This document shows positions 6,477 through 41,030 of a stretch of 41,030 bases of DNA, piece by piece. The notes below the pieces were generated by a model. The model had not been told where the DNA came from. It saw only the letters and a program-made list of their open reading frames with translations, and made no database searches. Every line of letters begins with the position of its first letter. Positions within the stretch are counted from its first letter, which is position 1. The stretch spans positions 1 through 41,030 of the IMG/VR virus record IMGVR_UViG_3300032311_000579. One strand, given 5' to 3'. A program made the position numbers and the translations under genes. This stretch comes from a virus.

Positions 6477-9173
6477 TTATCCTTCAAGAGCGTCAAGTCT
6501 AGACTGCATTTCATTTATTCTGGATGTCATTTCTTTAAAAGCCCCAACTAAGAATAGTGGAATCTTTTCATAATAAATACCTACGGGCTCATCATTTTTA
6601 TATTGTATTAAAAATTCATTATCAGTATGTTGAACTAAATCTTCAACTATCATACCTAGTTGGTTAAACCAAGGATCTTCTACAACTTCTGGCTTATAAT
6701 TAAATGTAACTAGGTTCATATTGTTTATGATGTTACTGTAATTAGATACAGATGTAAATGGAGCAACATTATCTTTAAGTTTAATACTGGATCCAGTACC
6801 TGTTCTAACTTTAAGAAACCCGCTTGAATCCTGATATATAGCACCTTGACCATTAGAAGAGGTTGTTCCTAGAACATTAGCATTTATAGTGCTTCCAATC
6901 TCCATTTTGTTAAAATAAGATGTACCGCTATTTGCAATTATTCCTGATCCAAAAATTGCTCCTTTGCTAAACCAAGCCAAGTCTGAAGTAATCATAATTG
7001 TGGTTGTTACATCGTCTAGCGTATACAACGTCATTGAAGCAGCTTCATAGCCGTTAGGTCGTGGCGCTTGTATTTTTAATTGTCCATATGTAGTAATTCC
7101 AAAACCTTCAATAGATCCTGGCTGCGATCCTGAGTTTGTATGAAATGTTAATTTATTAAAAACCTCATTTAATGATATTCTAGGAAACGTGTCTGAGGTT
7201 TGAGTTCTAATAACGTTACCAGTTAGAACACCAGTATATATATAGTCGGCTACAAGTGCATCTGCTGCTATTGTTCTTGCCTCTAAAATTCCTCCATTTA
7301 GCGTAGCGCCGTTTGTACCAGCATTTAATTTTCTAAGTATCGCAACTTTATCAAAGCTAGTAGTTGGCAGATATGCAGCGGCTATTTGTTGAGAAGTAGA
7401 GTAACTATTTAATGTGCTAGTTAGCCCAAGGTTAGTGACATAGCTATTTAGTGTTGTTGATAAAGTATTACTTGTAACATAACTTGCTAATGTTGATGAA
7501 AATGATCCGTTTGTTACATAGCCTGCAATTGATGAACCAGTTCCAAGAACTGCATTTGTGGCGTATAGGGTTCCATCTATTCCAACTTTAAATTTAGCGT
7601 TTGCAGCAACTTGAGATCCTACCCATAGCCTATAGTCTGGATCAGTTGCACTTAGTCTTACTATAGAAGCAAGAGTTCCTGTGGCGTCTCCTAAAGTTAT
7701 GACTCCGCTACTTTCAATTTTTGTATTTGAGCTTTCAATAGAGCCCACTGTTTTTGATGTTCCATTAAGTGTCCATCCACCTATGTATCCTTTACGGGCA
7801 TCTATTAATCCGTCAGACGCTTGAATAAAAACGCTTTGTGCCCCAGCTGCATCATGTGCATATAAACCACCAGATTGCATGACAACCCTTGCTCCAGATA
7901 CTGTTCCATCTTGTGCAAATGTTCCACCAGCAATTATGCTTCCTGTGGTTACTCTAAGGTTTCCAGTAAATGTTCCGCCAGTTGCATTTATTTTACCAGT
8001 TGTATATACATCCGATCCGTCCCAGTATAAGAATGAGCTTGCGCTTCCAACTCTAAACTGCCCAGTGTTTAGCCAATAGTTATGGCCATAGTTTGTTGTT
8101 GATCTATCTAATATAATTCCGTTGTATGTACCAGCTGTTTGTGTTGGAGTAATTGTATTAGATGTGTTTATAGATTGCGTAATGCCTGTTCCTATTTTAA
8201 ATAGGTCTGCTGTCTTCCCGCCAATAGATAATATAGATCTTAATTGGACATTGCCTGCTGGGGCATTAGGGTCTGAGACGGGGCCAAAACTTCCAGACGC
8301 AACTTGTCCCGCAACTCCAGTGTTCCAAGAAATACTATTAAATGGACTTTTTGCTGTTACCTGCCAATAGTAAACTGTGTTTGGGGTCAAGCCTGTTATA
8401 GAAAATTTTGTTGTTGCTTTTCCGTCTACCTGCCCGTACTCCCATAATGGGTTTGTAACGGTTGCAGGATTATTGGGAGACCATCTAATTACATAGCCAT
8501 TTGTATCTGCGTCTGTACTCGCTGTCCAGGACACATCAATCTTTATACTAAATCCACTTTTATCTTCAGGATCAATTGAAGGGGTTACTGCAACTCCTGT
8601 AGGTGCCTTTGGAACTTTTGTTGTATCTATTTCAGAATTAAGAATTTCTACGGGCCCCGCCGTTACTTCTGATATATTTAGATCATCCCACCTATCTCTT
8701 GACCTAACCTTAACCCATCTTGGAGCATAGCTAGAAGCTTGAATGGTGACGTTAGTTGAAGTTCCAACATAAACAATATTCTGCACAGCAAAATCACTTG
8801 TAAGGCTTTCAAATATAACTACGTCATCTTGTGTGCTCAAAGGATCTAGATCAAATTTAACTCCATAAGACTTGAATCCCGACGTTAGGGTCAGGTTTTT
8901 AACTGGCAGTGTTCCGTTTTCTATAACGTGTTGTACTAGGTATGCGGGAGACCTTTCGCTTTCAGTTATTAATTTTGTCTCTTCGTCTTCGTGTAAATAT
9001 GTGAAAAAAAACTTATACGTTTTATCTTTTACTGGGACCATTCTTATTGTTTTGGTATACGAGTTTGCAGATGTTGATTTAGCTTTTTCTGCAGCGGCGT
9101 TTGGATCTGTTTCAAGATCAGCTGGGATTGATTCGCCGCCCCCATCAGTCATCATTGGGTCCGTATATCTCAT
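6477..9173 (-). CDS. Tail fibre protein with FN3 domain and C-terminal S74 intramolecular chaperone, 898 aa
   Basis: A long beta-rich fibre. Residues about 188-295 form a fibronectin type III domain (VSWTASTDADTNGYVIRW ... GLTPNTVYYWQVTA). A glycine/serine/threonine-rich shaft follows, including a short repeat region near 548-600 (SYVTSNTLSTTLNSYVTN). The C-terminal 100 residues are an S74 self-cleaving chaperone: S795-S-I-K-L-K800 matches the Ser-Lys spacing of the known catalytic dyad (S-x4-K), followed by GMIVEDL and a terminal coiled coil (MTSRINEMQSRLDALEG). In this family the chaperone trimerises the shaft and then cuts itself off before the Ser. Likely role: host recognition or a side fibre. 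The start codon follows the upstream TAA directly, so translation is probably coupled. Confidence 0.85.
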   Translation of the reverse strand: MRYTDPMMTDGGGESIPADLETDPNAAAEKAKSTSANSYTKTIRMVPVKDKTYKFFFTYLHEDEETKLITESERSPAYLVQHVIENGTLPVKNLTLTSGFKSYGVKFDLDPLSTQDDVVIFESLTSDFAVQNIVYVGTSTNVTIQASSYAPRWVKVRSRDRWDDLNISEVTAGPVEILNSEIDTTKVPKAPTGVAVTPSIDPEDKSGFSIKIDVSWTASTDADTNGYVIRWSPNNPATVTNPLWEYGQVDGKATTKFSITGLTPNTVYYWQVTAKSPFNSISWNTGVAGQVASGSFGPVSDPNAPAGNVQLRSILSIGGKTADLFKIGTGITQSINTSNTITPTQTAGTYNGIILDRSTTNYGHNYWLNTGQFRVGSASSFLYWDGSDVYTTGKINATGGTFTGNLRVTTGSIIAGGTFAQDGTVSGARVVMQSGGLYAHDAAGAQSVFIQASDGLIDARKGYIGGWTLNGTSKTVGSIESSNTKIESSGVITLGDATGTLASIVRLSATDPDYRLWVGSQVAANAKFKVGIDGTLYATNAVLGTGSSIAGYVTNGSFSSTLASYVTSNTLSTTLNSYVTNLGLTSTLNSYSTSQQIAAAYLPTTSFDKVAILRKLNAGTNGATLNGGILEARTIAADALVADYIYTGVLTGNVIRTQTSDTFPRISLNEVFNKLTFHTNSGSQPGSIEGFGITTYGQLKIQAPRPNGYEAASMTLYTLDDVTTTIMITSDLAWFSKGAIFGSGIIANSGTSYFNKMEIGSTINANVLGTTSSNGQGAIYQDSSGFLKVRTGTGSSIKLKDNVAPFTSVSNYSNIINNMNLVTFNYKPEVVEDPWFNQLGMIVEDLVQHTDNEFLIQYKNDEPVGIYYEKIPLFLVGAFKEMTSRINEMQSRLDALEG

Positions 9174-14018: not shown

Positions 14019-14704
14019 TAAACTTCTTCCAGTGCTATAGATACATCCCAGAATTCTTGCGCCTCTGGCAGAACCGTAACAGCAGATGCCGTTGATGAGG
14101 CAGGTGTTCCAGATATAGTTCCTGCAACAGTAAATGATGTTGGGGTTGCTGCGGTGATAGTAAATACTCCGTTATATGCTGCAAATGTTGCTCCAGATAC
14201 GCTAATCTTATTTCCAACTGCAAAACTATTTCTACCAGTATATGTTGTTACTCCAGCAGCATACGATATAGCGGTTATGTTTGAATTTTTAAATACTCCA
14301 CCCGTTTTTAAATTTCTTTTTGTAACAGTAAAACTACAAGATGTGAATGACATCATCATTGTTTTTTCTCTTGAGGCGGTTCCGTTTGGAGAAACTTTTA
14401 CATTAAATGCACCCTGGCCAGCAACTGACTCATAGAACTCTTTAATGTTCATAGCCCCCCAGGCTCCATCTACAGTCATAGAAGAATATGTTGGTAAGCC
14501 TACCCAACTAACTGAAAGCATGTCTTTATCAGCAATAAATATCTTTCTTAATGTTCCATTTGACATTCTCTGGGTTTTTTCAATTCTCTGTATATCCAAT
14601 GTAGCGCTTGCTCTATTGTGCTCGCTTAATGCCTGCCAGACTACAGGGGTAACCGATGTGTTTTCAAATGTTATAAGGGATCCAAGCGGAAGGGTTAGTG
14701 CCAT
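14018..14704 (-). CDS. Distal tail / minor tail protein with Ig-like insertion, 228 aa
   Basis: It directly follows the tape measure, the usual site of the distal tail (Dit-like) protein that caps the tube. The first 130 residues are a tail-protein core (SLITFENTSVTPVVWQ, TLRKIFIADKDMLSVSW). Residues about 140-210 form a Gly/Ala/Thr-rich Ig- or HYR-like module (SGATFAAYNGVFTITAAT), and the last residues (EFWDVSIALEEV) return to the core, so the module appears inserted in a loop. A good ribosome site (GTAGGAG) lies before the ATG. Exact Dit homology is inferred from order. Confidence 0.75.
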   Translation of the reverse strand: MALTLPLGSLITFENTSVTPVVWQALSEHNRASATLDIQRIEKTQRMSNGTLRKIFIADKDMLSVSWVGLPTYSSMTVDGAWGAMNIKEFYESVAGQGAFNVKVSPNGTASREKTMMMSFTSCSFTVTKRNLKTGGVFKNSNITAISYAAGVTTYTGRNSFAVGNKISVSGATFAAYNGVFTITAATPTSFTVAGTISGTPASSTASAVTVLPEAQEFWDVSIALEEV

Positions 14705-17700
14705 TATTTAACTCCTACTGTCATTGATGTGCCAGACATTTTAGAATTGCGGGAATCAAGAGTCTTGATTGCTGTGATAGTCTTCTGTGTTACTATATTT
14801 GACAATTGATTTATATCCCCATCGAAGCCGTTAATATTATTTGTAATATTATATGTTGCTCCACCCATTGTAGCATTATTAGCGTTTGGATTAAAGGGGT
14901 TCATGTTAGCAGGAACTACTGCTTCATTTTTATGAAGCATAGCAAGCATATCAGCTGGTACGTTATTTATTCCAGTTTCAAATTTAGGAATAGACATATT
15001 GGCAGAGTATGTAGGATTTACATATCCTCCATCTGCCATTCTTGGCCTTGCAGAAGGTACAGAAACTTTTGGTTTTACTGTAACCTTTGGCTCAACCATT
15101 GATATTGGAGGAAGATTTTGTATATGGATTCTCATTAGATTAACTAATTCTTCAACCTTTAGCATCTGCTCAAGACTGCTATAGCTGTTGCCAGACATAC
15201 TCTGAAGCCAGTCTGGATTAATTCTTCTAGTGTTTCCTTCTTTTATTATTGCATCTGTATTGTATCCTGTAACAATTTTCCAAAGGTCGTCTTCTGTCCA
15301 AGGAGTAACCTCTTTAGCAGCTTTTTCTGCACCGAAACGGCTATCATTTACAACACTTGTTTTTACCTTACCAGTATTTAAAAGATCTGCTAGAATTCCA
15401 AATTGATCTTTTTGTATTCCAAACATTCCGCCTGCTGCAGCCGTTGCATCATCTACCACCCATCCTTCTGTAGGCTTAAAGAATCTGCTTGCGTGTAAAT
15501 ATCTTCCATAGTCTGCACTCATTGGTTTTGTAAAATGTTTTGGATCAAGCTTTGCGACATGCTTGCTTTTTGCTAGTGCCAACCATTCAGGAACAATAAT
15601 TGCCATTTCATCAGTAAATCCTCCGCCAGCAAAAACTGGGCTTGGTATTTCTCTAGGTAGTAAATCTATAGTAAACTTTCCCTTAGTTAATTTTGAGCCA
15701 GGCGAAGGAGGTGTACCGTAATTACGAGATCCAGGATTTGTTGCATAATCAAATCCCTCGTCTAGGCTATAATATCCGCCAGCTTTTGGATTTCCAAATT
15801 CATCAACCAGGGGGGAACCATGAATATCATATTTGCTAAATCTAAGCGGGGTTTCTACGTCCAAGCCTAAAACATTTTTTACATAAGATTCGTTTAGTGC
15901 TTGAATAAATGGGCTTGGCCTAGCAACAAGCTCTTCTTTTGTTCCAGTCATTAGTCTTGAAGAAGTTGTAACGCCTGGTAATTGGCTTGCAACATGCAAT
16001 AAAAATTCATCAAATGTCATTGCTGCTCGGTAGTACCTACCAGCAGTGGGTAGTGGAGCTAAATCTTTCTGTTCAATTCTTTTACCATTTTTATCAATAC
16101 GAGCTCTTCTAATAAATCCTGTTTTAATTAGGTCTTCATATACTACGGCATACTGGCTTCTCATTGCTGCTCCGAGGTCACCGTCTAGCATTAGAGCCCC
16201 TCTATCTCCAGCCCCTCCACCAATTACGCTAGTCTTTGAGCCAAAAGCCGTGGACCATCTTGGATCGGCTTCAGCTCCACCAATTGTATATTTAAATGCA
16301 AAAGAATCTGTGCCATCTATATTTTTTAATCTTACATCTTCTAGGGAAGCTTTTAATGCTGCGGCTTCATTATATGGCACAAACCTTGATTTTTCTGACA
16401 TAGGGCGATCAAGTCCGACAGATTTTAACATAGCATCTCTGTAATCAGACCAACCTCCCCATTTTTTAAGAAGCTCTTCGTTTTTATAAAACGCAGCGCT
16501 GCCTGAATCCATTTGGGTTTGTGTAATTTTTGGGAAAGGCTTACCTATTGGAACCTTTATACCAGCAAGCATTGCTATCATTTTTTTCTGTTTGTAAGAT
16601 AATGTTTCTACTGGTGCTTGTGTGTAAAGGCTTTCCCACCACATTGGATTTTGACGAGCATACGGATCAGCCGCATCTGTTTTAATTGATGGCCTCCAAG
16701 GCCAGTTCATAATATCATCTACGTTGCCATCAAGAAGTTCTTGGAATAAATATCTTGGGTTGTCAGTTATGGTTCCTACATTACCCGTACCGATAAGACG
16801 TGGGGCGAACCTTCCTTCTGATTTAGCTATACTTGTTGCAAGATTAATTTGCTGCTGTATCGCCATTCTGGAGGCTTCCCCAGGAGTAATTGATTGAGTA
16901 AGTGTTTGTGTCATTTCATCAGACACGCCAGGTCTAGCTACCTGTTGAGAAATTGATGGCGGGCGAAGTGTAGAGCTTGACATAACAGGAGATAAATTAT
17001 CCATAAATGGTCTTGCCGTACCAATCATTATTGCTGGTATTGCATTCTGAGCAAATTTAGATGCGGTTGCTCCCATATATGGAATTGAGCCTTGAGGCAA
17101 AAGGGTTCCTAGTGATGGAACACCAAACTTTGCTGCTCCGTATGCACTAACACCAGATCTAACTGCTGCGCTTCCTGCAGCACCTCCCAAGAATAGTGAG
17201 CCAACGTTTAGTCCACTTAAGCCATGCTTAATCATAAATGCTTTATCGGCCTCTGATTTTAATCCTGCGGCTTTTAGGTCTTGAATATCTTTCCATTGAG
17301 CTTTATTGTTTGTGCTAAGGAATTGTGGCGTTCTGCTAGCAGTGTTTCCTGCCATATACATTGATAGCAACCAATCAGCGGACCTTCCAGTTTCTTTAAC
17401 CATTTCAGACAAGAAGTTTCCTGCTTTTTTATACCAAGGCTTTGGCGCTTTATAATTACTTGCCATATGACCTGCAGGCAAATGCTTATGTCCTGCTGGG
17501 CCACCGTCGTGGAATCTCTTTGCATTTATTAATCCACCATTTGCTTTTTTAACTGGATTATCTAAATTCATTTCGCCAAAATTTTTAAACTTTGAAAAAT
17601 CAAATGGCTTGTTATCTAAATTAAATCTTTTTCTTATTGATAAAATATCGTCTCTACTTATATAAGAATTATATCCTGACACTCCATTTTGCATAATGTT

Positions 17701-20700
17701 AAAGGCTTCAAGTGTGAGTGGGTCTGACAACTGGGCATGCTCTCTGTCTACTCCTTCGCCTTTCAAATTTGTTCTGTTATTTACAGTTGACAGTAAATGT
17801 ATTAGCTCATGAACCATTAAATCCCTATAAAGATTTTTTGTTAGCGGTGTGCTATTTTTCCAGTTATTTTGTGGAAGATTAATTCTTCCTAGGGAATTGG
17901 ACGGCTCTTTAGTATTGTAGCCACCCGTATATCTCCAAAATTGATCTTTGCTATCCCAGCGGGATTGGTCTGGTATGTAGTCGCTATCAGAACCTGCGCT
18001 AGCACCCGTTTCATTATTATTTTTAAATTTAGCATGTATGTATTGGTCAAACTTGCTCGGCATCTGGTCTTTAGATGGTATGGGTATAAATTTTAACCCA
18101 GTCTCGTTAGAAAGCATTTGCATCGCATTTATTAATGGCCTGTAGTTTTTATCCCTTTGGTTTAAATCTTTTGCTGGGTCTGAGACGACAACATAAATAG
18201 GTGATCCAGAGCTTGTTGGGAAAAGCTCTCCTGCAGCATTTCTTTGCTTATATGCTCCAGCCAAAGATTTAATCTGTGAAAGTATTCCGAAGCCGCCAAG
18301 TGCTAATGATGGAATTAGTTTCTTTAGCATAGAAGCCTTGTCTTTACCTTGAGGGCTAATTTCTTTTCCATCAGGAGATGCAAATTGTCTATGCTTATGT
18401 CCTACTAATCCACCCTTATGGAATTTCTTTATTCCGTGTAGAGGATTCATAATTCCTTTTATTAATTTAGGAATTGATGATACGCCCTTGGATATCGGTC
18501 CGCCTGCAAACGTTGATCCTATGCTTGTGTAGTCGTTCCATTTTCCTTCGCCTGCGTATATATTAGTCGCAGACTGCTGAAGGTATTTGCCAAAAAGTTC
18601 ATATAATATTGGGCCGCCAGGATTCATATGTTTCATAACTGGTGTCATTGTATTAGAGAATGAATGCACAAGCTTAGACCAATCAGATCTCTTGCTTGGA
18701 TCTGAAACTTCTCCTGGTTCTAAGAACTTAAGCCAATTAATGCCTCCAGAATTTCCAGCACTTGAAGTGTTTCCAAGATTCATGCCTTGCTCTTCACGGT
18801 ATTGATCTACTGTCTTATACTTACTCTTAATCTTTGGCAGATTTCTTCCGTGACGATGACCTACTGGTCCGCCTGTATGGAAGCCAATAGCTTTCTTGAC
18901 TTTCTTAAATAGCTTGCCCCAGTCAATAACTGACTCCATCGATCCGCCAGAAACTAATGTTCCATTTGGACCAATCAGTTCGCCGCTTGAACCGAGCATT
19001 CCTCCGCCTTCAATGGAACCTCCGCCTTCAAGTCTGCCTTTACTTAAAAAGTTTTTATGCTTTTCTGGAATAAACTCTGGATAAATTGTTTTGTATTTAT
19101 CAGGCAGGAATAATTCTGCTCTTCTGTTTCTGGCTCTGTTCTCAGCAGTTGTATTTGGAACAAGAGGTCTGTACTCCCCGTATCCCACTGGCAAAAATGC
19201 TGTACCAGGAACAAACTTTGACATATATTCTGCAATAGCATTTGCTCTATTTTGTGAAAGGATCTTGTTGTCTTTTCCTTTACCTACAGAGTCTGTGTGT
19301 CCTTGAACAACTATTGATGCTAGCTTATGCTTAATAAGATCTTTAGCAATTGCTTGAAGTTCTAGTCTTTGCTCTTTATTTAATGTGTAAGAGTTTGTAG
19401 CAAAATTAGCTGTGATTGGCGGAACTTCAATTTTAATAATCTGCTTATTAGCATCTTGCCATGCTTCTATTGGGCCCATTAGCTTTCCGCCCTGCATGTT
19501 TACATTTATATTTGATGTGCCAGTTCCAAATGAACTAGTGTGTGTAGATAAAGGAGTTGGCTTTACAGGTCCACCCGCTGCATATTTACCAGCATTCAGT
19601 GCATCAAAATGATCTACTCCATATTTGGCTACCGAGTCTGCTTTAATTACATATTCGCCATTTGATAAGTAAGCTGGGATAGAATCAGATGTTGCAGTTC
19701 CTGCTCCTCTAATATGTCCACCGTCTGCCTTAGTATAAGGGTTGACTGTTCTGCTTATATTCCCATCTTCTTTTATTCTGTAAGTGGATACCTTGCCATC
19801 TTTATCCCTTACTGAGAAAAATTCTCCAGGAACTAGGCCTTTTTCTTGAGCAAGCTTTTTTAGTTTTTGACTAATTCCCCACGGCCCAAAGTCGTATATC
19901 CCACCATATCCTGCAACATCTGCGTCACTGAGCTGGCTTGTTCCTATTCCAGCATTTCCCAAATTGTATGGGTTAGCACGTGTTCCATCTCCACCAGCAC
20001 CAATGTTTAATCTCTTTCCATCAATGTTTATAATTACATTTCCACTAACATCTATGCTGCTTAATGCACCAAGTTTGCCTTCAAGGCTAGCAACCATTGC
20101 AGCGCCTAAGTCTAGATCTTTTAATCCATTAAGTTTAACTCCAGCTTTTTCTGCTGCGTCAGCAACTGCTGCAAGCATCTTCTTTGATGCTTCGCTTGAC
20201 TTCCAAGCGCCTCTTGTTGCTTCTGGCTGCTTTAGCAATTCAATTTGCCAATTAAGCATTGCAGTATTTATTGCTGAAATAGAACTTTCTGCATTAGTAA
20301 TTTTGCCACTTAGATCCCCAAGCTTTTCTCCTGCTAATTGAGCATTGTCTGAGATTCCTTGCTGCTTGCTCTGTATGGCTTCAATTAGTTTTTGAAGTGG
20401 AACATTCTTTAGAATATTTGAATCTTCAATTGATTTTTTCTGTGCGTTATATTGAAGCTCACTTTGGTATCCTTGTATATCAAGGCTTGCTTGTTGAGCA
20501 CCAGCAATGTTTCCAGTTGCAAGTGCGGCATCATATTCTGCCTGCTTCTTTGCAATCTCTCTTCCTATATCGCCTTCTTGCTTTGCTGCATCTAGCGCCT
20601 TAAGTCTTGCATCTGCAAGCTTATTGTTTGCATCTATTTGTTTTTGAAGTGAAGCAATCTTATCTCTATCTGATATTTGATCTGCTACAGATTGTCCTCT

Positions 20701-23700
20701 TGCTGCCTTTTGATATTTTGCCTGAAGCTGTAACATTCTGTCTAGATCAACATATTGCTTTTTCAATACGCCTTCTCTGTTGGCAGATTCAACTTTTTTA
20801 CCTAAAGATATCTGAAGGTTATAAAGATCATTTGTCTGCTCTGCGTTAAGGGCCCTTAAGTCTCCAGTGTATCCCTTAACTTGAATTCTTGTTTTTTGCC
20901 ATAAAGATAAAGCAGTTTCTTGCTCGTTAACAATTTGTCTAATTGATGGGTCAATTTTTGCCATCTCATCAACGACCTCTTTGGTTAAGTAAACTTGATT
21001 TTCAACTTGGCTATTAATTTCGTCAATAGCAATTTTTTCTTGATCAAGCATTAATTGCTTTTCTTGACCACTTGAAAAGTATGTTCCATCCTTAGCTGCT
21101 TTTTTACGTGCTTCCTTTAAAGCTTTTGCTTGTCTAGACTCGACATCCGTAGACAAAGCCATCATTGCAGTATTTAGCTGATTTGCTTGTTCTGTTGCAT
21201 CACGGTTAGTTGCCATTGCGGTAGTCAAACTATCAATTGCAGATGCTGCAGCAGACGCTGTATCCTTTATGTCATTAAATCCTTGTGAACGAACTGTGTA
21301 GGCTGCGGCATTTGCTGATTGGTCTGATAATGCGTACATAGTGTATATCTTTTTAGCTGCATCTTCTGCTGACATGCCCATAGCAATTAATTGCTCTTTA
21401 AGTCTTATGGCAAGCTCTCTTTGTTTTTCTGGGTCTTCGTTGCCTGTTTGATTAATTAAAGCTACTTGATCAGAATAATTAGTTTTAACTTCTTTTTTTA
21501 ACTTCTTGTATTCTTCAATAGTTATATCTAGTGGGGTTCCAGATCCTTGCATGCTTTCATACAAAAGAGTATTTCTTTCTTTTAAAGCTTTTGCATTATT
21601 GATTGCTTCTTTTATTTTGTCATTAAAGTTTGTAAATTTAAGTCCTGCTTTTTCTGCAGCTTCTGCAGTCATGCCATATCCTAATGCATTTAGTCTAAGA
21701 GCCTCTTTGTGAGCCTGCCATTTATCCCATGCAAACTTTGCTATTGCAGCACCTGCTCCAACAGCAAGATTAAATCTAGTAAATATGCTTAATGATGTTC
21801 CAAGTGCTTTGCTGAAAAGATTTGAGCTTCCAGTTAGCTTGCTTAGCATTGTTCCATATTTAGTTAGCTGCGGAGCACCCGTAATTTTGTTAGCTCCAAC
21901 TGCAAACATTGGAGTTCTTGCTTTTATAAATTTATCGCCCATAATGCTTGCGCCTTTACCGCCGCCCATACCTTGTCCCATTAATAAGAATGGAAGGAAT
22001 GACCCCATTGTTGATAATGCGTTTCCAGGAGTTCCGCCAATTTTTTCACCAGCATATTTTGAGCCCTCACTTACGCCCATAATTAGCAAGAGCTGCTTGA
22101 GCATTGGAATTATTCCACCAAGCCTAAATCCATTCGGAATAGCTCCGCCAGCCTTATATCCATTTGGAATTATCCCTCCAGCATTTCTTGGAACAAATAG
22201 CTCTGGTCCTTTTTCTCCAACAATATATGGCTGGCCTGCATTGACTGGTCCACCCATTTCTCTTTTTTCTATTCCAAATACCAACTGTTTTAAAGTTTCT
22301 GTTAGTGGTGTATCTTTTTTAGATTCCCAGTTTGCAAACTTCTTTCTTAGAATTTCTCTATCTATAGTAGATAAAACTTTTCTTCCCTCTGGTGCAGAAA
22401 GAGTAGATGAGGCTGCAGATCTGATTACAGAGTCCATAATGCTTGGCTCTAATGCTTTTACTAAATGTCCTTGTGCATTCTTTGAGTATCCATATGGCAT
22501 TTCTTTAGCAAGTTCGGCTGCGAATTTATCATACAGAATTCTTTGAGTTCTCTTAGTTAGTCCAGTAGAACCAAAAAGCTTTTCAGCCATTCCAATTTGT
22601 AGTGATGTTACGCCCCATCCTCCAGTAGAATCTTTACCAAAGCCAGCTCCAATTTTATGCATTGCCTTACCTTTAGTTAGGGCTGCAACTAGTCCGCCAA
22701 ACATAAAGCCGTTCGCATCAGTCTTAAATGCATTGTCTGAAAGACTTACTGAATGGCCAGATTGTCTGCGCTTTAATTCATCTGCTGCAACCATCTTTGC
22801 TATAGCAGCTGGGGTCATTTGTTTTTCTGGTGAGATCTGTAATCCTGAGTGAACTCCGTGAAGTTCTTTCCAATTAACTCCTCGTGCGTCAGAAAGTCTT
22901 CTAATCATTGCTTCATAAACAACTTTTTCTTCTGCATTTAAGTCAAATCTTGCAACAGTCTGCTTTAGTTTTGGCAAAGCATCTTCAATTTCTTTAAGCA
23001 TACGTGAATGATATTGATCTGCTGTCATTCCATTTGGTATGCTGTGGGTAGATTCGGCAAAGAACTTTTTAGCTCCGCTGCCCTTTCTTCCAAGAAGATT
23101 TATGTATGCCTGTTCTTTTACTGATGGCATCATTGCTGCGTACCCTCTGAGCCCAGAAGCTGCTGAGAATACTCCAGCTGGACCTACATCTGAAAGAACA
23201 TTGCCCGATAAATTACCTCTTGCTAAATCTTTATCTCCACGTAATGCTGACGCAACTAGCTGTCTAAAGTACTGGTCTGTTGTGAACGTTGCGTCGGTTG
23301 CTGCTAGAGTTGGATCAAATTTTGACTCAAGTGCTAATAATTTTCTTTTGCCAGTTGGGTCAGTGGGATCTCTCATAACAACAATTTTTTGTTTTGGGGC
23401 ATGTAGTCCATGAACGTCACGAGCAATTTCTGTTGCTCTCATTTCCGCAAGAGCCGCTCTTTCGTCTAGCACTGGTTTTACGAATACCTTTTCGTCGCCC
23501 TTCATGTAGAGCCCGCCCACTCCTGCAACAGGGAAACTTCTACCAGTGGTTGGGGATAAAAGTTCTCCATATTGAGTTACTGGTTTCTTTGCAAATCTTG
23601 ATTCTGATACGGCGGTGCTTGCTTTTTCCATTGCCGCCCTTGCTGCTCTTTGTGCTTCAACTTGTTTAATAGATCTTGGCATGCCAACAAAGAAAGGCTT

Positions 23701-26700
23701 ACCATATCCGTATCTTCCTTTTTCTACGGTTCCTCCAGGAACTTTTCCGCCTGCATTTAAACTTTCAATTCTTGCAGTATATAGAGACCCTATTCCGTCT
23801 TTTAATTCTCCAGAGGCAGTTACGCTTCTTCCTGCTTGTCTACCTCTAACTGTTCCGTAAGAAAGAAGTTCGTCAAAGAAATTTGAATTATTTCCTCCGC
23901 CAACTTTATTTAAATGTCTTCTTAAAATTCTTTCTGCAAACATTTCAAATGTGTCGTCTGGACCAAAGTTTGGCTTTGTGCGAGATTTTCCTCTGCCACG
24001 TAATGCTGTGATCAATGATCTGTATGCTTTCATAAATTGAGCTGGGTTTCCGCTATAACCTAAATTTTCTGCAGCTGATCTCATAATCACCATCGGATGA
24101 ATTGGTACACTTTCTAGGTCATCTGCAAAGGCTGATGCGTTTCCACCGCTAATTGCTTTTTTGTTTGCACTTGATGACTGAGGACCCATTGCCCCTGGTA
24201 CAAAATAATCATCTGATCCTTCTATGCTTCTCTTACCTGAAAAATGGCCCTTCTCAATTCCCTTCCAAAGTCCTTTAATTTCTTTGTCAGTCATCTTTTC
24301 AATATCACTAGGCTTGTAGAAACCACCTGTTTTTGGATTTGGATAAAGTCTGCCAAACATTGTCATACTTTCATTTAGCCACTCACGTTGTCTGGTTGCG
24401 TTACCGCCAGTTTTTGTATCAAAGAAAGCTCTTGCAAAAACCTTTGATCTTCCTTCTGGTATATACCTAGCTCCTAGCTTTCTTACCATTCCTGGAATAA
24501 TTGAACCGCCAAATACTCTTCCCATTCCAGATGTATTTCCTGGTCCGCCGTTTAGCTCGTACATTAAAGGCATATTTCTTTGTGCAATGTGCGCTGGTAT
24601 TACTGCTTCTCCAGGTGTTAATACAACTGGGACCTGACCACCTTCTTGTGCATAATAAGATTTGCCTCCAAGAATATTTGTTATTAATGGTAGATGCTTT
24701 TCAGTAGCAGCTTTATTGATTACAAATGATCCAGGCTCAGCTGTTGTATGGTATGTATCTGTGTCGCCAGTTCCTGGAACAAAACCACCTTTTGCAAACT
24801 TTGGCTTTGTTGTCTCTATGTTGTATCCAGCACCAGAAGTTCTTACCCCGCCAAGAGCTCTTGCGATTCTATCAACCATTGCTTTTGTAGGTCCTTTATG
24901 GAACATCTCTTTCATATTAGACTTTCCTGTAGCTGGATCTACTACTGGCTGAGAGGTTAGTGGTACTGTTCCTAGGTTTGCTGTTCTGCCCATTCCAGCT
25001 GCAGTTAGTCTTGTTGTTTCTGCAAGCATTGCTTCTACGGTTGCATTTAATGAAATAATTCTTGCTCTAGCTTGTTCTACTGTTATTTTACTTTGCTGAA
25101 CTTGCTGAACAATTGCTGCAGTTTCTTTTGCTGCAAGGTCTGTTATCTGGCTAAACTCTGGCAACAATGCTTGGTAAGAATCAGATAAGCTTGATGTAAC
25201 AGTTCCTGTTGCCATCACTTCCGCCTTTAGTATCTTAAGCTCTGCTTCAGATTGCATAGCAATAGCGGCTGTCATTGCATGCCATTTTGCAGCTTCTGCT
25301 GCAACAATTCCTGTGGAGGTTCCTCCTATTGATGTTAGTCCAGGTATTTTTGGTAGATCGCTGTCCATATAAGCCTGTGGATTTCTGCCAACTCTTATAT
25401 TTACTGGCTTTGATCCTGGTACTGTTCCAAATATTGTTCCTGCTTGTGGATTTCCAGATGGAATTAAGTGAGACATGTCTCTAGAATATGGTGCACCAAC
25501 TAGTGGATTATTTTTATCTACCACTCTTCCAGCGGGTCCTGCTGCCATAATTACTCCGCCTGCTACTGTTGATATTGCTGGCTGAACAGATACTTTGGCT
25601 GCATTTGCTTTTGCTTCTAGATTTATAAATGACTCTGCAAGTGTATTTACTGCATTAGATAAAACAATAGTTGCTTCTGTATCCGAGTAGAACGATGTTG
25701 CAAGACCTTTAGCAGCAGCATCTGCGGCTATGATCTCTGGTGTTAATAATTTAAATCCTTGCCCACCCTTTGCTAATTGTCTTAGATGGAATATTCCCTT
25801 GATTACATATCCAATAAAGTTGCCCATAACACCAGCCAACATAATAAGAGGTCCAGCAATTGCTGTGAAACCTCCTAATACATTTAATAATGTTTTAACT
25901 GGCTCTGGAAGCTTCTGGAAAAACTTTATAATTGAGTCGACAACTTTTAATACCTTTGTGCTTATTCTTAAGAATTGCTCTCCTGCGCCAGCTAGGTCTG
26001 CTTGAACTGATGCCCAAGCTCTTTTGAACTGCCCAGAGGCTGATTCTGTCATCATCTTTAATTCTCGATCTGAAATTGCTGCTAGGTCTGTTACGCTGGC
26101 CTTCATTAAGTCCATTACCTGAAGTGTTTGTGATCCAGACTTTCCTAGGTTTTCAAATAACGCCGACATTCTTGCAAACTGGAACTTACCAAATAGCTGT
26201 TCAATTGCTCTTGATTTATCTAGAGGATTAAGTTTGTCTAGAGCTCCTTGCAATTCTAATATTGTTGCAGTTAAGTCTCCAGCATTACTATTTACAATTC
26301 CTTTTAGATCAATTCCAAATCCAGCAAATTGCTCTGTTGCAACTTTAGTTGGGTTAATAAGTGATGCCATTGCTGACTTAATTGCGTTTGCACCTTCTGA
26401 TGCATTTACTCCGCCTTCTTTCATTGCAGTAAGGTAGAGGGCTAAATCTTTTACATCTCCGCCAAGAGATTTGATTACAGGCCCTGCCTTTGGAATAGCT
26501 TCTGTCAGGTCTGCAAGGCTTGTGGAAGTCTGGTTTTCAACTGCGTTAAGGAAATCGATTGATTGTGCAAGTTCATCTGTGTTTTGCTTAAATGCATTTT
26601 GAATAGCAAGAGTTGCTTTCATTGCATCTTGTCTATCAACTTCACCAAGAACTGCAAGTCTAGTTGTTTGCTGTGTGGCTGCGATTAATTCATTGCCCTG

Positions 26701-27501
26701 TTGTCCAGTTGCTGCTAGGTCTGCAGCAAGTGCAATTGTTTCTTTATAGGCAACACCGTAGGATCCAGCAATTTCCCTAGCTGTGGCTGTTACATCTTTT
26801 CTTACCTGTGCCAGATCTGCAGATGAAGTTGCTGCAAGCCCTCCATAAACTTTTGTTAATCTTACTAATTCTGCGTCTGCTTCTCTGAATGCTTTTTGTG
26901 CTGCCGCTCCGAACATAACCAAAGGAACAGTTAGTCCTACTGTAAGCTGACGACCAGCCCATTGAGTATTTTTACCCCAGTTAATAAGACCTGTTGATCC
27001 GTCAAGCATTACCTTGTTCATTATTGCGGCTTCTTGTCGAGCAATAGCCATCTTGTTCTTTATTTCATCAAGACCTTTTGCAACCATGACATTGTATTGC
27101 ATTTGTCCTTGTGCATTTTTGCCTACAGGCTGAACTATAGCCTGTTGCAGCATTACCTGCTGCTTAGCTAAGTCTCTAATTAAATTGCTTGTCTTCTTTG
27201 TATGGCCGCTCCAAGCGTTGTAATAATCGTTGAGCTTGAGACGGCCTCTATCTAAGTTCTTTCCGAACTTGTCTACGTCTGATGATAGGGATACAAAGTG
27301 TTGCGAGAACTGTCCTGTTGATGTTAGCGTTGTTGCAAACGACTTGTTCATTACAGCAATTTGATTTGCTAGTTTTGCGTTTGTTCCCGCTGTTGTTTCT
27401 TGCAGTTTTATGAGTTGGGCAGTAACCGCAGCTAGCTGAGCTCTTAAGCTCGTAAAGTCTGCGTGGGCTGTAATATTGGTCGTTATTATATTATCTGCCA
27501 T
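14704..27501 (-). CDS. Tail tape measure protein, 4265 aa, multi-domain
   Basis: This sets tail length and is threaded through the tube. Residues about 190-530 match the TP901-type core (YKETIALAADLAATGQ, LALYLTAMKEGGVNASEG), followed by a hydrophobic stretch near 538-571 (FTAIAGPLIMLAGVMGNF). Gly-rich tape-measure motifs recur near 898-972, 1749-1798, 2591-2645 and 4155-4203 (for example VGEKGPELFVPRNAGG). Between them lie extra modules: a kinase-like region (about 1310-1480; K1342, D1423/D1425, N1430), a coiled coil (about 2100-2457), an OmpA-like domain (about 2690-2805; GHTDS at 2734, R2752) and an HELIH region (H3231). Three FH-x-GG-x2-GH(K/R)H motifs punctuate 2870-3342. The frame is unbroken. 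The start at 27501 has only a weak ribosome site amid TA repeats, so coupling to the chaperone gene is likely. Confidence 0.95.
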   Translation of the reverse strand: MADNIITTNITAHADFTSLRAQLAAVTAQLIKLQETTAGTNAKLANQIAVMNKSFATTLTSTGQFSQHFVSLSSDVDKFGKNLDRGRLKLNDYYNAWSGHTKKTSNLIRDLAKQQVMLQQAIVQPVGKNAQGQMQYNVMVAKGLDEIKNKMAIARQEAAIMNKVMLDGSTGLINWGKNTQWAGRQLTVGLTVPLVMFGAAAQKAFREADAELVRLTKVYGGLAATSSADLAQVRKDVTATAREIAGSYGVAYKETIALAADLAATGQQGNELIAATQQTTRLAVLGEVDRQDAMKATLAIQNAFKQNTDELAQSIDFLNAVENQTSTSLADLTEAIPKAGPVIKSLGGDVKDLALYLTAMKEGGVNASEGANAIKSAMASLINPTKVATEQFAGFGIDLKGIVNSNAGDLTATILELQGALDKLNPLDKSRAIEQLFGKFQFARMSALFENLGKSGSQTLQVMDLMKASVTDLAAISDRELKMMTESASGQFKRAWASVQADLAGAGEQFLRISTKVLKVVDSIIKFFQKLPEPVKTLLNVLGGFTAIAGPLIMLAGVMGNFIGYVIKGIFHLRQLAKGGQGFKLLTPEIIAADAAAKGLATSFYSDTEATIVLSNAVNTLAESFINLEAKANAAKVSVQPAISTVAGGVIMAAGPAGRVVDKNNPLVGAPYSRDMSHLIPSGNPQAGTIFGTVPGSKPVNIRVGRNPQAYMDSDLPKIPGLTSIGGTSTGIVAAEAAKWHAMTAAIAMQSEAELKILKAEVMATGTVTSSLSDSYQALLPEFSQITDLAAKETAAIVQQVQQSKITVEQARARIISLNATVEAMLAETTRLTAAGMGRTANLGTVPLTSQPVVDPATGKSNMKEMFHKGPTKAMVDRIARALGGVRTSGAGYNIETTKPKFAKGGFVPGTGDTDTYHTTAEPGSFVINKAATEKHLPLITNILGGKSYYAQEGGQVPVVLTPGEAVIPAHIAQRNMPLMYELNGGPGNTSGMGRVFGGSIIPGMVRKLGARYIPEGRSKVFARAFFDTKTGGNATRQREWLNESMTMFGRLYPNPKTGGFYKPSDIEKMTDKEIKGLWKGIEKGHFSGKRSIEGSDDYFVPGAMGPQSSSANKKAISGGNASAFADDLESVPIHPMVIMRSAAENLGYSGNPAQFMKAYRSLITALRGRGKSRTKPNFGPDDTFEMFAERILRRHLNKVGGGNNSNFFDELLSYGTVRGRQAGRSVTASGELKDGIGSLYTARIESLNAGGKVPGGTVEKGRYGYGKPFFVGMPRSIKQVEAQRAARAAMEKASTAVSESRFAKKPVTQYGELLSPTTGRSFPVAGVGGLYMKGDEKVFVKPVLDERAALAEMRATEIARDVHGLHAPKQKIVVMRDPTDPTGKRKLLALESKFDPTLAATDATFTTDQYFRQLVASALRGDKDLARGNLSGNVLSDVGPAGVFSAASGLRGYAAMMPSVKEQAYINLLGRKGSGAKKFFAESTHSIPNGMTADQYHSRMLKEIEDALPKLKQTVARFDLNAEEKVVYEAMIRRLSDARGVNWKELHGVHSGLQISPEKQMTPAAIAKMVAADELKRRQSGHSVSLSDNAFKTDANGFMFGGLVAALTKGKAMHKIGAGFGKDSTGGWGVTSLQIGMAEKLFGSTGLTKRTQRILYDKFAAELAKEMPYGYSKNAQGHLVKALEPSIMDSVIRSAASSTLSAPEGRKVLSTIDREILRKKFANWESKKDTPLTETLKQLVFGIEKREMGGPVNAGQPYIVGEKGPELFVPRNAGGIIPNGYKAGGAIPNGFRLGGIIPMLKQLLLIMGVSEGSKYAGEKIGGTPGNALSTMGSFLPFLLMGQGMGGGKGASIMGDKFIKARTPMFAVGANKITGAPQLTKYGTMLSKLTGSSNLFSKALGTSLSIFTRFNLAVGAGAAIAKFAWDKWQAHKEALRLNALGYGMTAEAAEKAGLKFTNFNDKIKEAINNAKALKERNTLLYESMQGSGTPLDITIEEYKKLKKEVKTNYSDQVALINQTGNEDPEKQRELAIRLKEQLIAMGMSAEDAAKKIYTMYALSDQSANAAAYTVRSQGFNDIKDTASAAASAIDSLTTAMATNRDATEQANQLNTAMMALSTDVESRQAKALKEARKKAAKDGTYFSSGQEKQLMLDQEKIAIDEINSQVENQVYLTKEVVDEMAKIDPSIRQIVNEQETALSLWQKTRIQVKGYTGDLRALNAEQTNDLYNLQISLGKKVESANREGVLKKQYVDLDRMLQLQAKYQKAARGQSVADQISDRDKIASLQKQIDANNKLADARLKALDAAKQEGDIGREIAKKQAEYDAALATGNIAGAQQASLDIQGYQSELQYNAQKKSIEDSNILKNVPLQKLIEAIQSKQQGISDNAQLAGEKLGDLSGKITNAESSISAINTAMLNWQIELLKQPEATRGAWKSSEASKKMLAAVADAAEKAGVKLNGLKDLDLGAAMVASLEGKLGALSSIDVSGNVIINIDGKRLNIGAGGDGTRANPYNLGNAGIGTSQLSDADVAGYGGIYDFGPWGISQKLKKLAQEKGLVPGEFFSVRDKDGKVSTYRIKEDGNISRTVNPYTKADGGHIRGAGTATSDSIPAYLSNGEYVIKADSVAKYGVDHFDALNAGKYAAGGPVKPTPLSTHTSSFGTGTSNINVNMQGGKLMGPIEAWQDANKQIIKIEVPPITANFATNSYTLNKEQRLELQAIAKDLIKHKLASIVVQGHTDSVGKGKDNKILSQNRANAIAEYMSKFVPGTAFLPVGYGEYRPLVPNTTAENRARNRRAELFLPDKYKTIYPEFIPEKHKNFLSKGRLEGGGSIEGGGMLGSSGELIGPNGTLVSGGSMESVIDWGKLFKKVKKAIGFHTGGPVGHRHGRNLPKIKSKYKTVDQYREEQGMNLGNTSSAGNSGGINWLKFLEPGEVSDPSKRSDWSKLVHSFSNTMTPVMKHMNPGGPILYELFGKYLQQSATNIYAGEGKWNDYTSIGSTFAGGPISKGVSSIPKLIKGIMNPLHGIKKFHKGGLVGHKHRQFASPDGKEISPQGKDKASMLKKLIPSLALGGFGILSQIKSLAGAYKQRNAAGELFPTSSGSPIYVVVSDPAKDLNQRDKNYRPLINAMQMLSNETGLKFIPIPSKDQMPSKFDQYIHAKFKNNNETGASAGSDSDYIPDQSRWDSKDQFWRYTGGYNTKEPSNSLGRINLPQNNWKNSTPLTKNLYRDLMVHELIHLLSTVNNRTNLKGEGVDREHAQLSDPLTLEAFNIMQNGVSGYNSYISRDDILSIRKRFNLDNKPFDFSKFKNFGEMNLDNPVKKANGGLINAKRFHDGGPAGHKHLPAGHMASNYKAPKPWYKKAGNFLSEMVKETGRSADWLLSMYMAGNTASRTPQFLSTNNKAQWKDIQDLKAAGLKSEADKAFMIKHGLSGLNVGSLFLGGAAGSAAVRSGVSAYGAAKFGVPSLGTLLPQGSIPYMGATASKFAQNAIPAIMIGTARPFMDNLSPVMSSSTLRPPSISQQVARPGVSDEMTQTLTQSITPGEASRMAIQQQINLATSIAKSEGRFAPRLIGTGNVGTITDNPRYLFQELLDGNVDDIMNWPWRPSIKTDAADPYARQNPMWWESLYTQAPVETLSYKQKKMIAMLAGIKVPIGKPFPKITQTQMDSGSAAFYKNEELLKKWGGWSDYRDAMLKSVGLDRPMSEKSRFVPYNEAAALKASLEDVRLKNIDGTDSFAFKYTIGGAEADPRWSTAFGSKTSVIGGGAGDRGALMLDGDLGAAMRSQYAVVYEDLIKTGFIRRARIDKNGKRIEQKDLAPLPTAGRYYRAAMTFDEFLLHVASQLPGVTTSSRLMTGTKEELVARPSPFIQALNESYVKNVLGLDVETPLRFSKYDIHGSPLVDEFGNPKAGGYYSLDEGFDYATNPGSRNYGTPPSPGSKLTKGKFTIDLLPREIPSPVFAGGGFTDEMAIIVPEWLALAKSKHVAKLDPKHFTKPMSADYGRYLHASRFFKPTEGWVVDDATAAAGGMFGIQKDQFGILADLLNTGKVKTSVVNDSRFGAEKAAKEVTPWTEDDLWKIVTGYNTDAIIKEGNTRRINPDWLQSMSGNSYSSLEQMLKVEELVNLMRIHIQNLPPISMVEPKVTVKPKVSVPSARPRMADGGYVNPTYSANMSIPKFETGINNVPADMLAMLHKNEAVVPANMNPFNPNANNATMGGATYNITNNINGFDGDINQLSNIVTQKTITAIKTLDSRNSKMSGTSMTVGVK

Positions 27502-38555: not shown

Positions 38556-39683
38556 CTACTGCTCTTCTAGTGTTTTTACTCTTGCTGTGAGTTCTTGTAC
38601 CGCTTTAATTAATGGCGAAATAAACTCTTCGTATCTCAATGCCTGTTGACCCTCTGGGTCAGCGACATCCGATATTACCCATCCGCCAAAGTCTGCTACT
38701 CCAGCAGCATCTAATACTGATTTAACTTCTTGTGCAATTAAGCCGTAATGCGTTCTACTTCCATCTATCTTATTATACTTAACAGGATTAAGGTTATTTA
38801 TAAAATCTAAACCAAGGTCTGACGTGATTATGTTTTCTTTTGTTCTTGCATCAGATATTACTGTGGCTGCAGAATTTAAATATATATTTTTCCAGCCTCT
38901 TGTTGTGCGCTGGTCTCCAGCATTTAATGGCCCCAAGAGACCTAATGTAAATTGATTTGTAGTTAAAGGAAACCAATTAGAGTTAACTCCAATTGGTGAA
39001 ATATCTGTCGCTGCGTAATTTAATGAAATTCTTGTAGCAATAGGATCTATGTTTGCATTTGTTCCAGCTGGTCCAGCTGGTCCTGTTGCACCTGGTAAGC
39101 CATCAGCTCCACGGGGAATCGTAAAGTTTAAAACTACATCGCTAGTTGTGCCAGAATTTGTTACTGCAGCATTTGTGCCAGCGGCTGAAGTTGTAACTGT
39201 TGGGGCCACTGTTATTGTTGCTGCCGCATCTCCTTTAGGTCCAGATGCGCCCGTATCACCTTTGGCACCAGTTAGCCCTGTGTCTCCACGAGGAATTGTA
39301 AAGTTTATTGTTTGAGAAGGAGCGGTTCCAGTTATGGTTACCTGTGGCTGTGTGCCAGCTGCTCCTGCTGATACAGTTCCAACGCTTAACACGTTTGCTG
39401 GTCCTGGCCCGCCCAGAACGCCGTCTACTCCTCTTGGAATATTAAATGTTAGTGATTGTGAGGGCGCTGTTCCACTAATAGTTACTGAGGCGCTCTGCCC
39501 AGGATTAATAGTGTTTGTAGCAGCAACAGTTAATACGTTTGCTGGTCCTGTCGCTCCCTGTGGCCCAGGGTTTGCTGCAATGAATGCAGCTATGTCTGTT
39601 CCTAAAGCGCCCAAGTCCCTAGGTACATCGGGAGAGTCCGTGTAGCTTGGGAAACGCCATCCATTAACACCTGTTGTTGCCAT
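38556..39683 (-). CDS. Collagen-like fibre protein with C-terminal S74 chaperone, 375 aa
   Basis: The N-terminal part holds three repeats, each a beta block followed by collagen-type Gly-X-Y triplets: NPGPQGATGPA with VTISGTAPSQSLTFNIPRG; VTITGTAPSQTINFTIPRG, then GLTGAKGDTGASGPKGDAA; LNFTIPRG, then GLPGATGPAGPAG. The C-terminal 100 residues are an S74 chaperone (S277-D-A-R-T-K282, the Ser-Lys dyad spacing; YGLIAQEVKSVL; KAVQELTARVKTLEEQ). The product is probably a trimeric fibre matured by self-cleavage. The ATG lies 6 nt behind an extended -10 box and has no Shine-Dalgarno sequence. It follows two dioxygenase genes that may act on its prolines or lysines. Confidence 0.85.
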   Translation of the reverse strand: MATTGVNGWRFPSYTDSPDVPRDLGALGTDIAAFIAANPGPQGATGPANVLTVAATNTINPGQSASVTISGTAPSQSLTFNIPRGVDGVLGGPGPANVLSVGTVSAGAAGTQPQVTITGTAPSQTINFTIPRGDTGLTGAKGDTGASGPKGDAAATITVAPTVTTSAAGTNAAVTNSGTTSDVVLNFTIPRGADGLPGATGPAGPAGTNANIDPIATRISLNYAATDISPIGVNSNWFPLTTNQFTLGLLGPLNAGDQRTTRGWKNIYLNSAATVISDARTKENIITSDLGLDFINNLNPVKYNKIDGSRTHYGLIAQEVKSVLDAAGVADFGGWVISDVADPEGQQALRYEEFISPLIKAVQELTARVKTLEEQ

Positions 39684-39689
39684 TTTTTA

Positions 39690-39698
39690 ATTATACCA
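39690..39698 (-). promoter_or_regulatory. Extended -10 promoter of the collagen-like fibre gene, leaderless type
   Basis: TGgTATAAT (hexamer 39695-39690) overlaps the stop codon of the upstream dioxygenase; a clear -35 is not seen. The ATG at 39683 starts 6 nt later with no Shine-Dalgarno sequence. Confidence 0.55.
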
Positions 39699-40353
39699 CT
39701 TTACTGTTATATACAGACAGGTGTGAGGTATACCTATCTCCAGAAATAACGTCATTTACTTTATGCAGGTATGGTTCTTTGCTTGGGAAAATAAGCAGGC
39801 TTCCTTCTTCTGGCTTTATTGATATGCCGTGATTTGGAAACTCAATTTCCCCACCCTCATAATCTGAGTTTAGATAAGATATCATGGAAAAAGCTAGATC
39901 GGTGTCACCATCATAATTATCGCAATGAGGACCCATTCCTGGACCAGTCCATCTTCTTACTGGAATCTCGTCTGTCATTAATGTATACTTTGATGGATCT
40001 AGATTGTGATTAGACAGGTATTGATTTAGACACATCTCAAATGCCATCTCAAGGCTATTCTTAATGTATAGTATTTTTTGATCTAGTCTTCCATTGTCAA
40101 TTTTATTTTTAACATTCTTTGTTATTATATTTTTGTTTTCGCCGTATACAACTTCTGGGTTGTTGCTTGCTATCCAAGGACTCCATTTAGATATGACGCC
40201 GTGGCTTCTTTCATCAAGGTCGACTTCATTAATAAACTCTAGCAATTCTTTTGGATAGCTGATAACATTTTTAAAATACCAAATGTTGCTCGATAACTGT
40301 TTTAATATAAACATATGGTACATATCTTCTGGATTGAAGTCTTGGCTACTCAT
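39691..40353 (-). CDS. 2-oxoglutarate/Fe(II) dioxygenase (prolyl hydroxylase type), 220 aa
   Basis: The metal site is H143-C144-D145 (GPHCDNYDGD) with the distal H197 (YLHKVND), and R207 (SGDRYTSHLS) is the expected 2-oxoglutarate anchor. The jelly-roll strands around it (AFSMISYLN, GGEIEFPNHG, GSLLIFPS) fit prolyl 4-hydroxylase-like enzymes. The reaction would hydroxylate a side chain using O2 and 2-oxoglutarate. The start MSSQDF overlaps the stop of the other dioxygenase (TAATG) with GAGG upstream; an in-frame longer version with a very basic N-terminus (start 40488) is a read-back into that gene and is rejected. Substrate is unknown; the neighbouring collagen-like fibre is a candidate. Confidence 0.85.
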   Translation of the reverse strand: MSSQDFNPEDMYHMFILKQLSSNIWYFKNVISYPKELLEFINEVDLDERSHGVISKWSPWIASNNPEVVYGENKNIITKNVKNKIDNGRLDQKILYIKNSLEMAFEMCLNQYLSNHNLDPSKYTLMTDEIPVRRWTGPGMGPHCDNYDGDTDLAFSMISYLNSDYEGGEIEFPNHGISIKPEEGSLLIFPSKEPYLHKVNDVISGDRYTSHLSVYNSKVV

Positions 40354-41030
40354 TAATTTCCCTCTACTTCTGATGCAGGTATTGTGGCTCCGTCTGGGGA
40401 TAGTCTTAGACCTCTGTCTCTGATATCTTTCCATTCTTCTTGTTCGCCCTTTTGCATTGCTCTTACTCCAGCTAGCTCTTCTGCCCAAGCGGCTCTTACA
40501 TCTTCTGGATAATCTGATTCTTCTCTATCATCCCAAAAAGATCCAAGTGTATATCTTGCAGCTTTTTTAACAACTGTAACTTCGTGCATGTTCTTGTGGC
40601 CACCATGGAATATTAAAAATGAACCAGCTTTTGGAACAACTTCCAAAGGAATCTCTCCGTGCTTTGCATCAAACTTTAAAGTGCCGCCTTCAAAGTCGTC
40701 ATTTAAATAAAGGAACCCAGCGTATCTACTTCTTGTAAATGCACCCATATTTCCTTCGTGATCGCTATTGTCTGAGTGCTTTGGGGCAAATGCTCCTGGA
40801 AGCCATCTTTGAACATGGAAGCTAATTTGCGACATATCTTCAAATGATTTATTTGCCACATCCGCAGCTGACTGTCTAAAGCGATTTTTTAAATCAGTAA
40901 ACCAAGTTGGGCTAAGATTAAACTCTTGTAAGATTGGCTCTCCGTCATATGGATATCTTGCAGAGGATGACTCATAGAAAGATATTCCTTTCCAGTAGCC
41001 TTCTTCATTTTGCTCAAGCTTATTTAATAG
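40353..41030 (-). CDS. 2-oxoglutarate/Fe(II) dioxygenase, 5' end beyond window
   Basis: The frame is open from 40353 to the window edge at 41030 (at least 225 residues), so the GTG at 40859 is not the true start. The upstream part reads KGISFYESSSARYPYDG and LSPTWFTDLKNRFRQS. The catalytic set is H-S-D in PKHSDNSD, a distal His in NMHEVTVV and Arg in KAARYTLGSFW. FLYLNDDFEGGTLKF is the usual strand between them. It is of the prolyl/lysyl hydroxylase type. It is coupled to the second dioxygenase by TAATG. The N-terminus cannot be seen here. Confidence 0.85.
   Translation of the reverse strand, partial: LLNKLEQNEEGYWKGISFYESSSARYPYDGEPILQEFNLSPTWFTDLKNRFRQSAADVANKSFEDMSQISFHVQRWLPGAFAPKHSDNSDHEGNMGAFTRSRYAGFLYLNDDFEGGTLKFDAKHGEIPLEVVPKAGSFLIFHGGHKNMHEVTVVKKAARYTLGSFWDDREESDYPEDVRAAWAEELAGVRAMQKGEQEEWKDIRDRGLRLSPDGATIPASEVEGN

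Follow-up and report, generated by a model that had tools for sequence, protein, structure and literature searches.

Ordered arrays of phage 2OG-Fe(II) oxygenases accompany a Pro-aromatic repeat protein, their candidate substrate

We analyzed an IMG/VR viral contig of 41,030 bases (the window, i.e., the whole stretch at its full length) which, in our preferred reading, ends inside a cassette for the hydroxylation of a virion repeat protein. The association of an ordered array of 2OG-Fe(II) oxygenases with a gene for a Pro-aromatic repeat protein is strong, and we consider it reasonably likely that the array acts on this protein. In many aquatic phages, the array travels with the repeat protein next to tail genes, which suggests that the phages modify their own particles. 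If true, dense hydroxylation, perhaps followed by sulfation, sits on phage tail proteins. Phage genomes often encode 2OG-Fe(II) oxygenases, for most of which no substrate is known. In the present case, the genome context names a specific candidate, which is thus testable with a synthetic repeat peptide.

The following features are found at the end of the window:

40353..41030, minus strand: 2OG-Fe(II) oxygenase A (array group b), 225 aa, 5' end cut by the record end; HxD...H...R; PF13640 at 42.2 bits
39691..40353, minus strand: 2OG-Fe(II) oxygenase B (array group a), complete, 220 aa; H143, D145, H197 and R/K 2OG anchor; PF13640 at 44.1 bits
39684..39698, minus strand: extended -10-like TGGTATAAT plus TAAAAA, a leaderless promoter-like site that abuts the fibre ATG and overlaps the end of gene B
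38556..39683, minus strand: collagen-like S74 fibre gene F, 375 aa; 20 Gly-X-Y triplets in short runs
38700..38855, minus strand: Peptidase_S74 / endosialidase chaperone domain of the fibre, C-terminal (residues 277-328); PF13884 at 50.9 bits (cut-off 22)

Both oxygenases exceed the Pfam 2OG-FeII_Oxy_3 cut-off of 27 bits and carry the iron/2OG motif HxD...H...R. The stop of gene A and the start of gene B share TAATG, and F follows B after 7 nt. Coordinates, Pfam matches and motifs thereby confirm what an earlier note on this DNA had described, i.e., two adjoining, TAATG-coupled oxygenases followed after 7 nt by an S74 fibre with Gly-X-Y runs. On the 3' side of the fibre gene we find a Laminin_G_3 (lectin-like) gene and then portal, protease and capsid. 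The window portal is 57% identical to that of Streptomyces phages of the Stanwilliamsviridae (Muntaha, Wakanda), which are the closest named relatives by portal and show a similar head-tail gene order; unlike in the array-carrying relatives, the region preceding the Muntaha portal has no annotated oxygenase or repeat gene.

We gathered relatives by searching with the B protein or the portal. Their fibre gene is preceded by a run of 5-8 oxygenase genes; grouped by similarity, these follow the fixed order c-d-e-b-a with window A in group b and window B in group a. That is, the pair is adjacent as stated earlier, but its description as ‘two tandem’ enzymes is an artefact, since the record ends inside a larger array of which A and B are merely the last two of five or more members. 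The HxD...H motif and the basic 2OG anchor are intact in 331/331 complete array members (Arg in 174, Lys in 157). Compared with relatives, dN/dS values range from 0.03 to 0.28 for A and B (0.03-0.08 for B), i.e., the genes are under purifying selection. Intact motifs and low dN/dS together rule out that the enzymes are degenerate.

Proteins of the DUF6065 and phrog_7084 families are interspersed among the array enzymes, and further AspH-like and other divergent oxygenase-like genes are found in the same cassettes. In near-identical relatives (98% nt), the cassette extends upstream as array, DUF6065, AspH-like, sulfotransferase and then repeat protein. DUF6065 genes lie within arrays at, e.g., L033:2464-3168 and L070:3743-4456, and the respective motif matches in 73/124 Pro-repeat loci vs. 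0/67 collagen loci. An AspH-like (PF05118) hydroxylase and a sulfotransferase-like gene are also seen between repeat gene and array in contig L003 (L003:734-1342, L003:1-774).

The repeat gene itself is known from relatives, as the window record stops before reaching it. In contig L007 (98.1% nt identity to the window over 8.7 kb), it is located at L007:3118-4446, 4-6 kb beyond the window end, and L008 (98.3% over 11.3 kb) holds it as well. The encoded protein combines Fn3 with tandem repeats of the form (PPGFFA/S)n or (PPHFPPFFPPYFPPFF)n, often with a Hint/intein-like C-terminal domain. We use ‘Hint-like’ as a label only, since Intein_splicing scores 19.6-19.9 bits (E under 1e-3) on these proteins against a curated cut-off of 35.8; Cys1 and the C-terminal HN are visible in some of them. 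The neighbours of the repeat gene are tail-type genes, and a virion role of the protein is therefore likely, judging from gene context. Further repeat types are TPFGF (L024; L543), FPTF and NPGF, such that no single X-Pro-Gly rule applies. Two Pro-aromatic repeat genes are present in L544 (1632-4697 and 9479-10954, one gene having FPTF and the other PPYF-type repeats) and in L547 (reverse complement; 6828-9209 and 13934-14899). The repeat peptide PPGFFAPPGFFA has no tryptic sites. Scanning 84,980 cellular genomes gave no PPGFF repeats, and a BLAST search (which masks repeats) of the named phages in INPHARED found no relative of the repeat protein. Likewise, no such Pro-repeat gene was flagged beside oxygenases in four translated stretches of named or single-cell marine phages, and our literature search found no link between phage oxygenases and proline-rich repeats.

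The association was assessed starting from the arrays as well as from the repeats. For the former, we used the 60 relatives in which three or more array genes and 1.5 kb or more of downstream sequence are visible. A Gly-X-Y gene lies downstream of the array in 48/60 loci, while 12/60 have none. All Gly-X-Y-free array loci with enough upstream view (9/9) show a Pro-aromatic repeat gene; array loci with no repeat gene in view show at most 1.6 kb upstream, which is too short to judge. For the latter, viral contigs were scanned blindly, i.e., without using the enzymes, for DNA coding PPGFFxPPGFF or PP[HY]FPPFFPP. Where at least 2.5 kb of sequence follows the repeat, an oxygenase lies downstream on the same strand in 130/145 Pro-repeat loci among the matches listed, at a median distance of 89 bp. 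When counted by DNA cluster (single-linkage), this holds for 22/27 independent Pro-repeat clusters, compared to 9/112 clusters in a collagen-pattern scan and 0/78 loci in a random 15-mer scan (each among the matches listed).

The same picture emerges per record: PF13640 is present in 25/25 Pro-repeat, 9/40 collagen-like and 0/40 random records (Fisher tests). Here, the record sets were picked by length, and the 25 Pro-repeat records (>20 kb) deliberately include loci without adjacent oxygenase. Such loci exist and count against our preferred reading; for Pro-repeat records without a clear adjacent oxygenase, 10/13 have one elsewhere in the record.

Co-occurrence could also arise without functional linkage, if the genes hitch-hike within a tail module that related phages share. 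Many loci are indeed related, and single-linkage leaves only 37 clusters among the matches listed. Yet the PF04860 portal is found in just 8/25 Pro-repeat records, and therefore several lineages rather than one are involved; gene orders and strands differ as well. The cluster and record counts given above as well as the covariation of enzymes and repeats described below further argue against this explanation, which we consider very improbable. Hitch-hiking within a single lineage in particular is made unlikely by the clusters and the differing portal types.

The earlier note had instead named the fibre as substrate, i.e., the enzyme pair would hydroxylate Pro/Lys in the S74 fibre and thereby stabilize its triple helix or enable glycosylation. 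The Gly-X-Y content of the fibre (longest run of 7 triplets, 20 in total) is equalled by 0/5000 shuffles, which rules out an origin by chance; the runs are short, and Pfam Collagen (PF01391) reaches 14.6 bits on the fibre, below its cut-off of 27.2. The array directly adjoins the Gly-X-Y gene in the 48 loci counted above, a few GLP/GGP and Y-Lys triplets are present, and PF13640 is enriched in collagen-like viral records compared to random ones (p 0.002). Pro-repeat records show a far stronger link, however, and just 20 short triplets would have to serve at least five enzymes. It had been suggested to check whether enzymes and Gly-X-Y repeats occur together in related phages, and genomes that keep the enzymes but lack a collagen-like gene had been named as a refutation; the 12 array carriers without any Gly-X-Y gene downstream are such cases. 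Contig L091, in turn, contains three Gly-X-Y genes, none of which adjoins an array; elsewhere in this contig, an oxygenase lies near an NPGFNEPAF-repeat Hint-like gene (L548).

The position of proline within the triplets is a further point. In hydroxylated collagens Pro prefers Y, while bacterial and viral collagens do not show that preference; the latter holds, e.g., for the collagen-like proteins of E. coli phages (EPcl), which are described as unhydroxylated (PMC3368898). In the window fibre, the X:Y ratio of Pro is 6:2, and in 39 family fibres it is 248:81 (787 triplets), i.e., the enrichment at Y that marks hydroxylated collagen is absent from both. Like the EPcl proteins, the fibre thus has Gly-X-Y runs without a preference of Pro for Y, but it differs from them in adjoining an oxygenase array. 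Based on the co-occurrence and Y-Pro tests, we reject the collagen-like fibre as the main substrate; the earlier proposal is probably wrong on this point, and we regard Pro/Lys hydroxylation of the fibre by the pair as unlikely. What remains of it is the more general idea of virion protein hydroxylation, for which prolyl-hydroxylase-like enzymes and the tail-gene setting make a plausible system.

If the array acts on the repeat protein, the fibre would be a neighbour with its own promoter, although it could serve as an additional substrate. At the fibre start, the 21 relatives listed share TGGTATAATTAAAAA-ATG in identical or nearly identical form, even with a diverged upstream gene, and the window holds one exact copy of this leaderless promoter-like site. 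Since the site is kept where the upstream gene differs, the separate leaderless promoter that had been proposed for the fibre gene is well supported as a sequence feature. In other viral contigs (L359, L365, L367, L396, L440), a 2OG oxygenase is found close to a collagen-like gene, and true collagen hydroxylation may take place there.

We also compared AlphaFold models of the enzymes with known structures, as the earlier note had recommended with regard to prolyl 4-hydroxylases. For B (pLDDT 90.6), the best PDB match is Chlamydomonas P4H-1 with (Ser-Pro)5, followed by PHD2 and PBCV-1 vCPH. For the 252-aa orthologue of A (pLDDT 89.8), it is P3H1, followed by PHD2 and P. putida P4H. Both models match PHD2/P4H structures with E about 1e-9, which supports the double-stranded beta-helix fold, and sequence matches are to P3H1 and PKHD-type enzymes. 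The closest sequence and fold relatives are thus prolyl hydroxylases, while peptidyl-proline hydroxylation itself is predicted: the structural matches have a TM of about 0.5-0.6 at 16-20% identity, which sets the superfamily and does not fix the substrate.

The oxygenases might also act on a small molecule, a nucleotide or a host-surface compound, with their proximity to tail genes being incidental (auxiliary metabolism or host takeover). PHROG 61 is classed as ‘moron, auxiliary metabolic gene and host takeover’, and the small-molecule hydroxylases PolD and PasI are among the related folds. Against this stand the close linkage of the enzymes, in different lineages, to one repeat protein of odd structure, the top PDB matches, which are protein prolyl hydroxylases, and the presence of several parallel paralogues; we deem such a role quite unlikely.

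Enzymes and repeats also covary. A group e enzyme in the third slot of the array goes with PPGFF repeats (68 loci, with no i or f), group i with PP[HY]FPPFFPP repeats (13 loci, with one e) and group f with PPYFPFF-type repeats (L544-L546). Part of this covariation may stem from shared descent. The variants (e/PPGFFA, i/PPHFPPFF, f/PPYFPFF) provide a ready natural series for studying specificity.

Given these observations, we propose that at least five paralogous P4H/PHD-like oxygenases (c-d-e-b-a) would hydroxylate the repeat region of the Fn3 + (PPGFFA)n + Hint-like protein, which is encoded among the tail genes, before assembly. The paralogues may differ in the residues that they target within the repeat unit, and this would account for the retention of so many enzymes and for the dependence of the third slot on the repeat type. 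The added hydroxyl groups could make the polyproline rod, which is otherwise very hydrophobic, stiffer or more soluble, or they could provide sites for attachment, and with a sulfotransferase gene in the cassette, sulfation of the hydroxylated rod would perhaps follow. The full version of this scheme is more tentative: it is possible, though we would not bet on it, that about five oxygenases each modify a different position (Pro, possibly Phe/Tyr) and co-evolve with the repeat, with subsequent sulfation and self-processing by the Hint-like domain. If true, such multi-enzyme repeat decoration would define a new class of post-translational modification of virions that is widespread among phages of aquatic habitats.

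Alternatively, the array could modify several tail proteins (repeat protein, fibre, other adhesins) with one substrate per paralogue. The existence of at least five distinct orthologue groups, of genomes with two Pro-repeat proteins (L544, L547) and of AspH-like and other divergent oxygenase-like genes in shared cassettes is in line with that. Arrays persist without the fibre, however, and the covariation of the third slot with the repeat type suggests the repeat as the shared substrate, which makes a division of labour among substrates doubtful.

The proposed action on the repeat protein has partial parallels in known systems. PBCV-1 vCPH (PDB 5c5t/5c5u), matched in the structure search with B, is also a virus-coded enzyme of the P4H fold, but it is a single enzyme of a eukaryotic algal virus at 17-19% identity, whereas the phages studied here have an ordered array of at least five paralogues beside a repeat gene. 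Eriksson et al. are said to have found in 1999 that the PBCV-1 P4H acts as a hydroxylase on virus-encoded repeat peptides rich in proline. According to the statement attached to reference 162 in PMC7019647, amino-acid analysis of PBCV-1 particles reportedly gave no hydroxyproline despite the viral P4H, which counts against our preferred reading. The (Ser-Pro)5 bound by Chlamydomonas P4H-1 (PDB 3gze, 2jig) is a non-collagen proline-rich substrate as well; this enzyme belongs to a cellular cell-wall pathway and shares 16% identity with B (TM about 0.5), while the substrate of the phage enzymes is a candidate. PHROG 61 and 2297 comprise phage enzymes of the same 2OG-Fe(II) oxygenase superfamily (from cyanophages and others), and EGLN3-like folds are reportedly widespread in aquatic phages (PMC12774648). 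The PHROG 61/2297 records examined show scattered copies or pairs, whereas the arrays described here are long, ordered and linked to a repeat protein.

Two more observations concern the tail genes of the window. The tape-measure protein (14704..27501, minus strand; phrog_10030, E 6e-114) is unusually long with 4265 aa, which implies a very long tail. At the far end of the tail genes, a second S74-domain protein is encoded (6477..9173, minus strand; 898 aa), which also carries Fn3.
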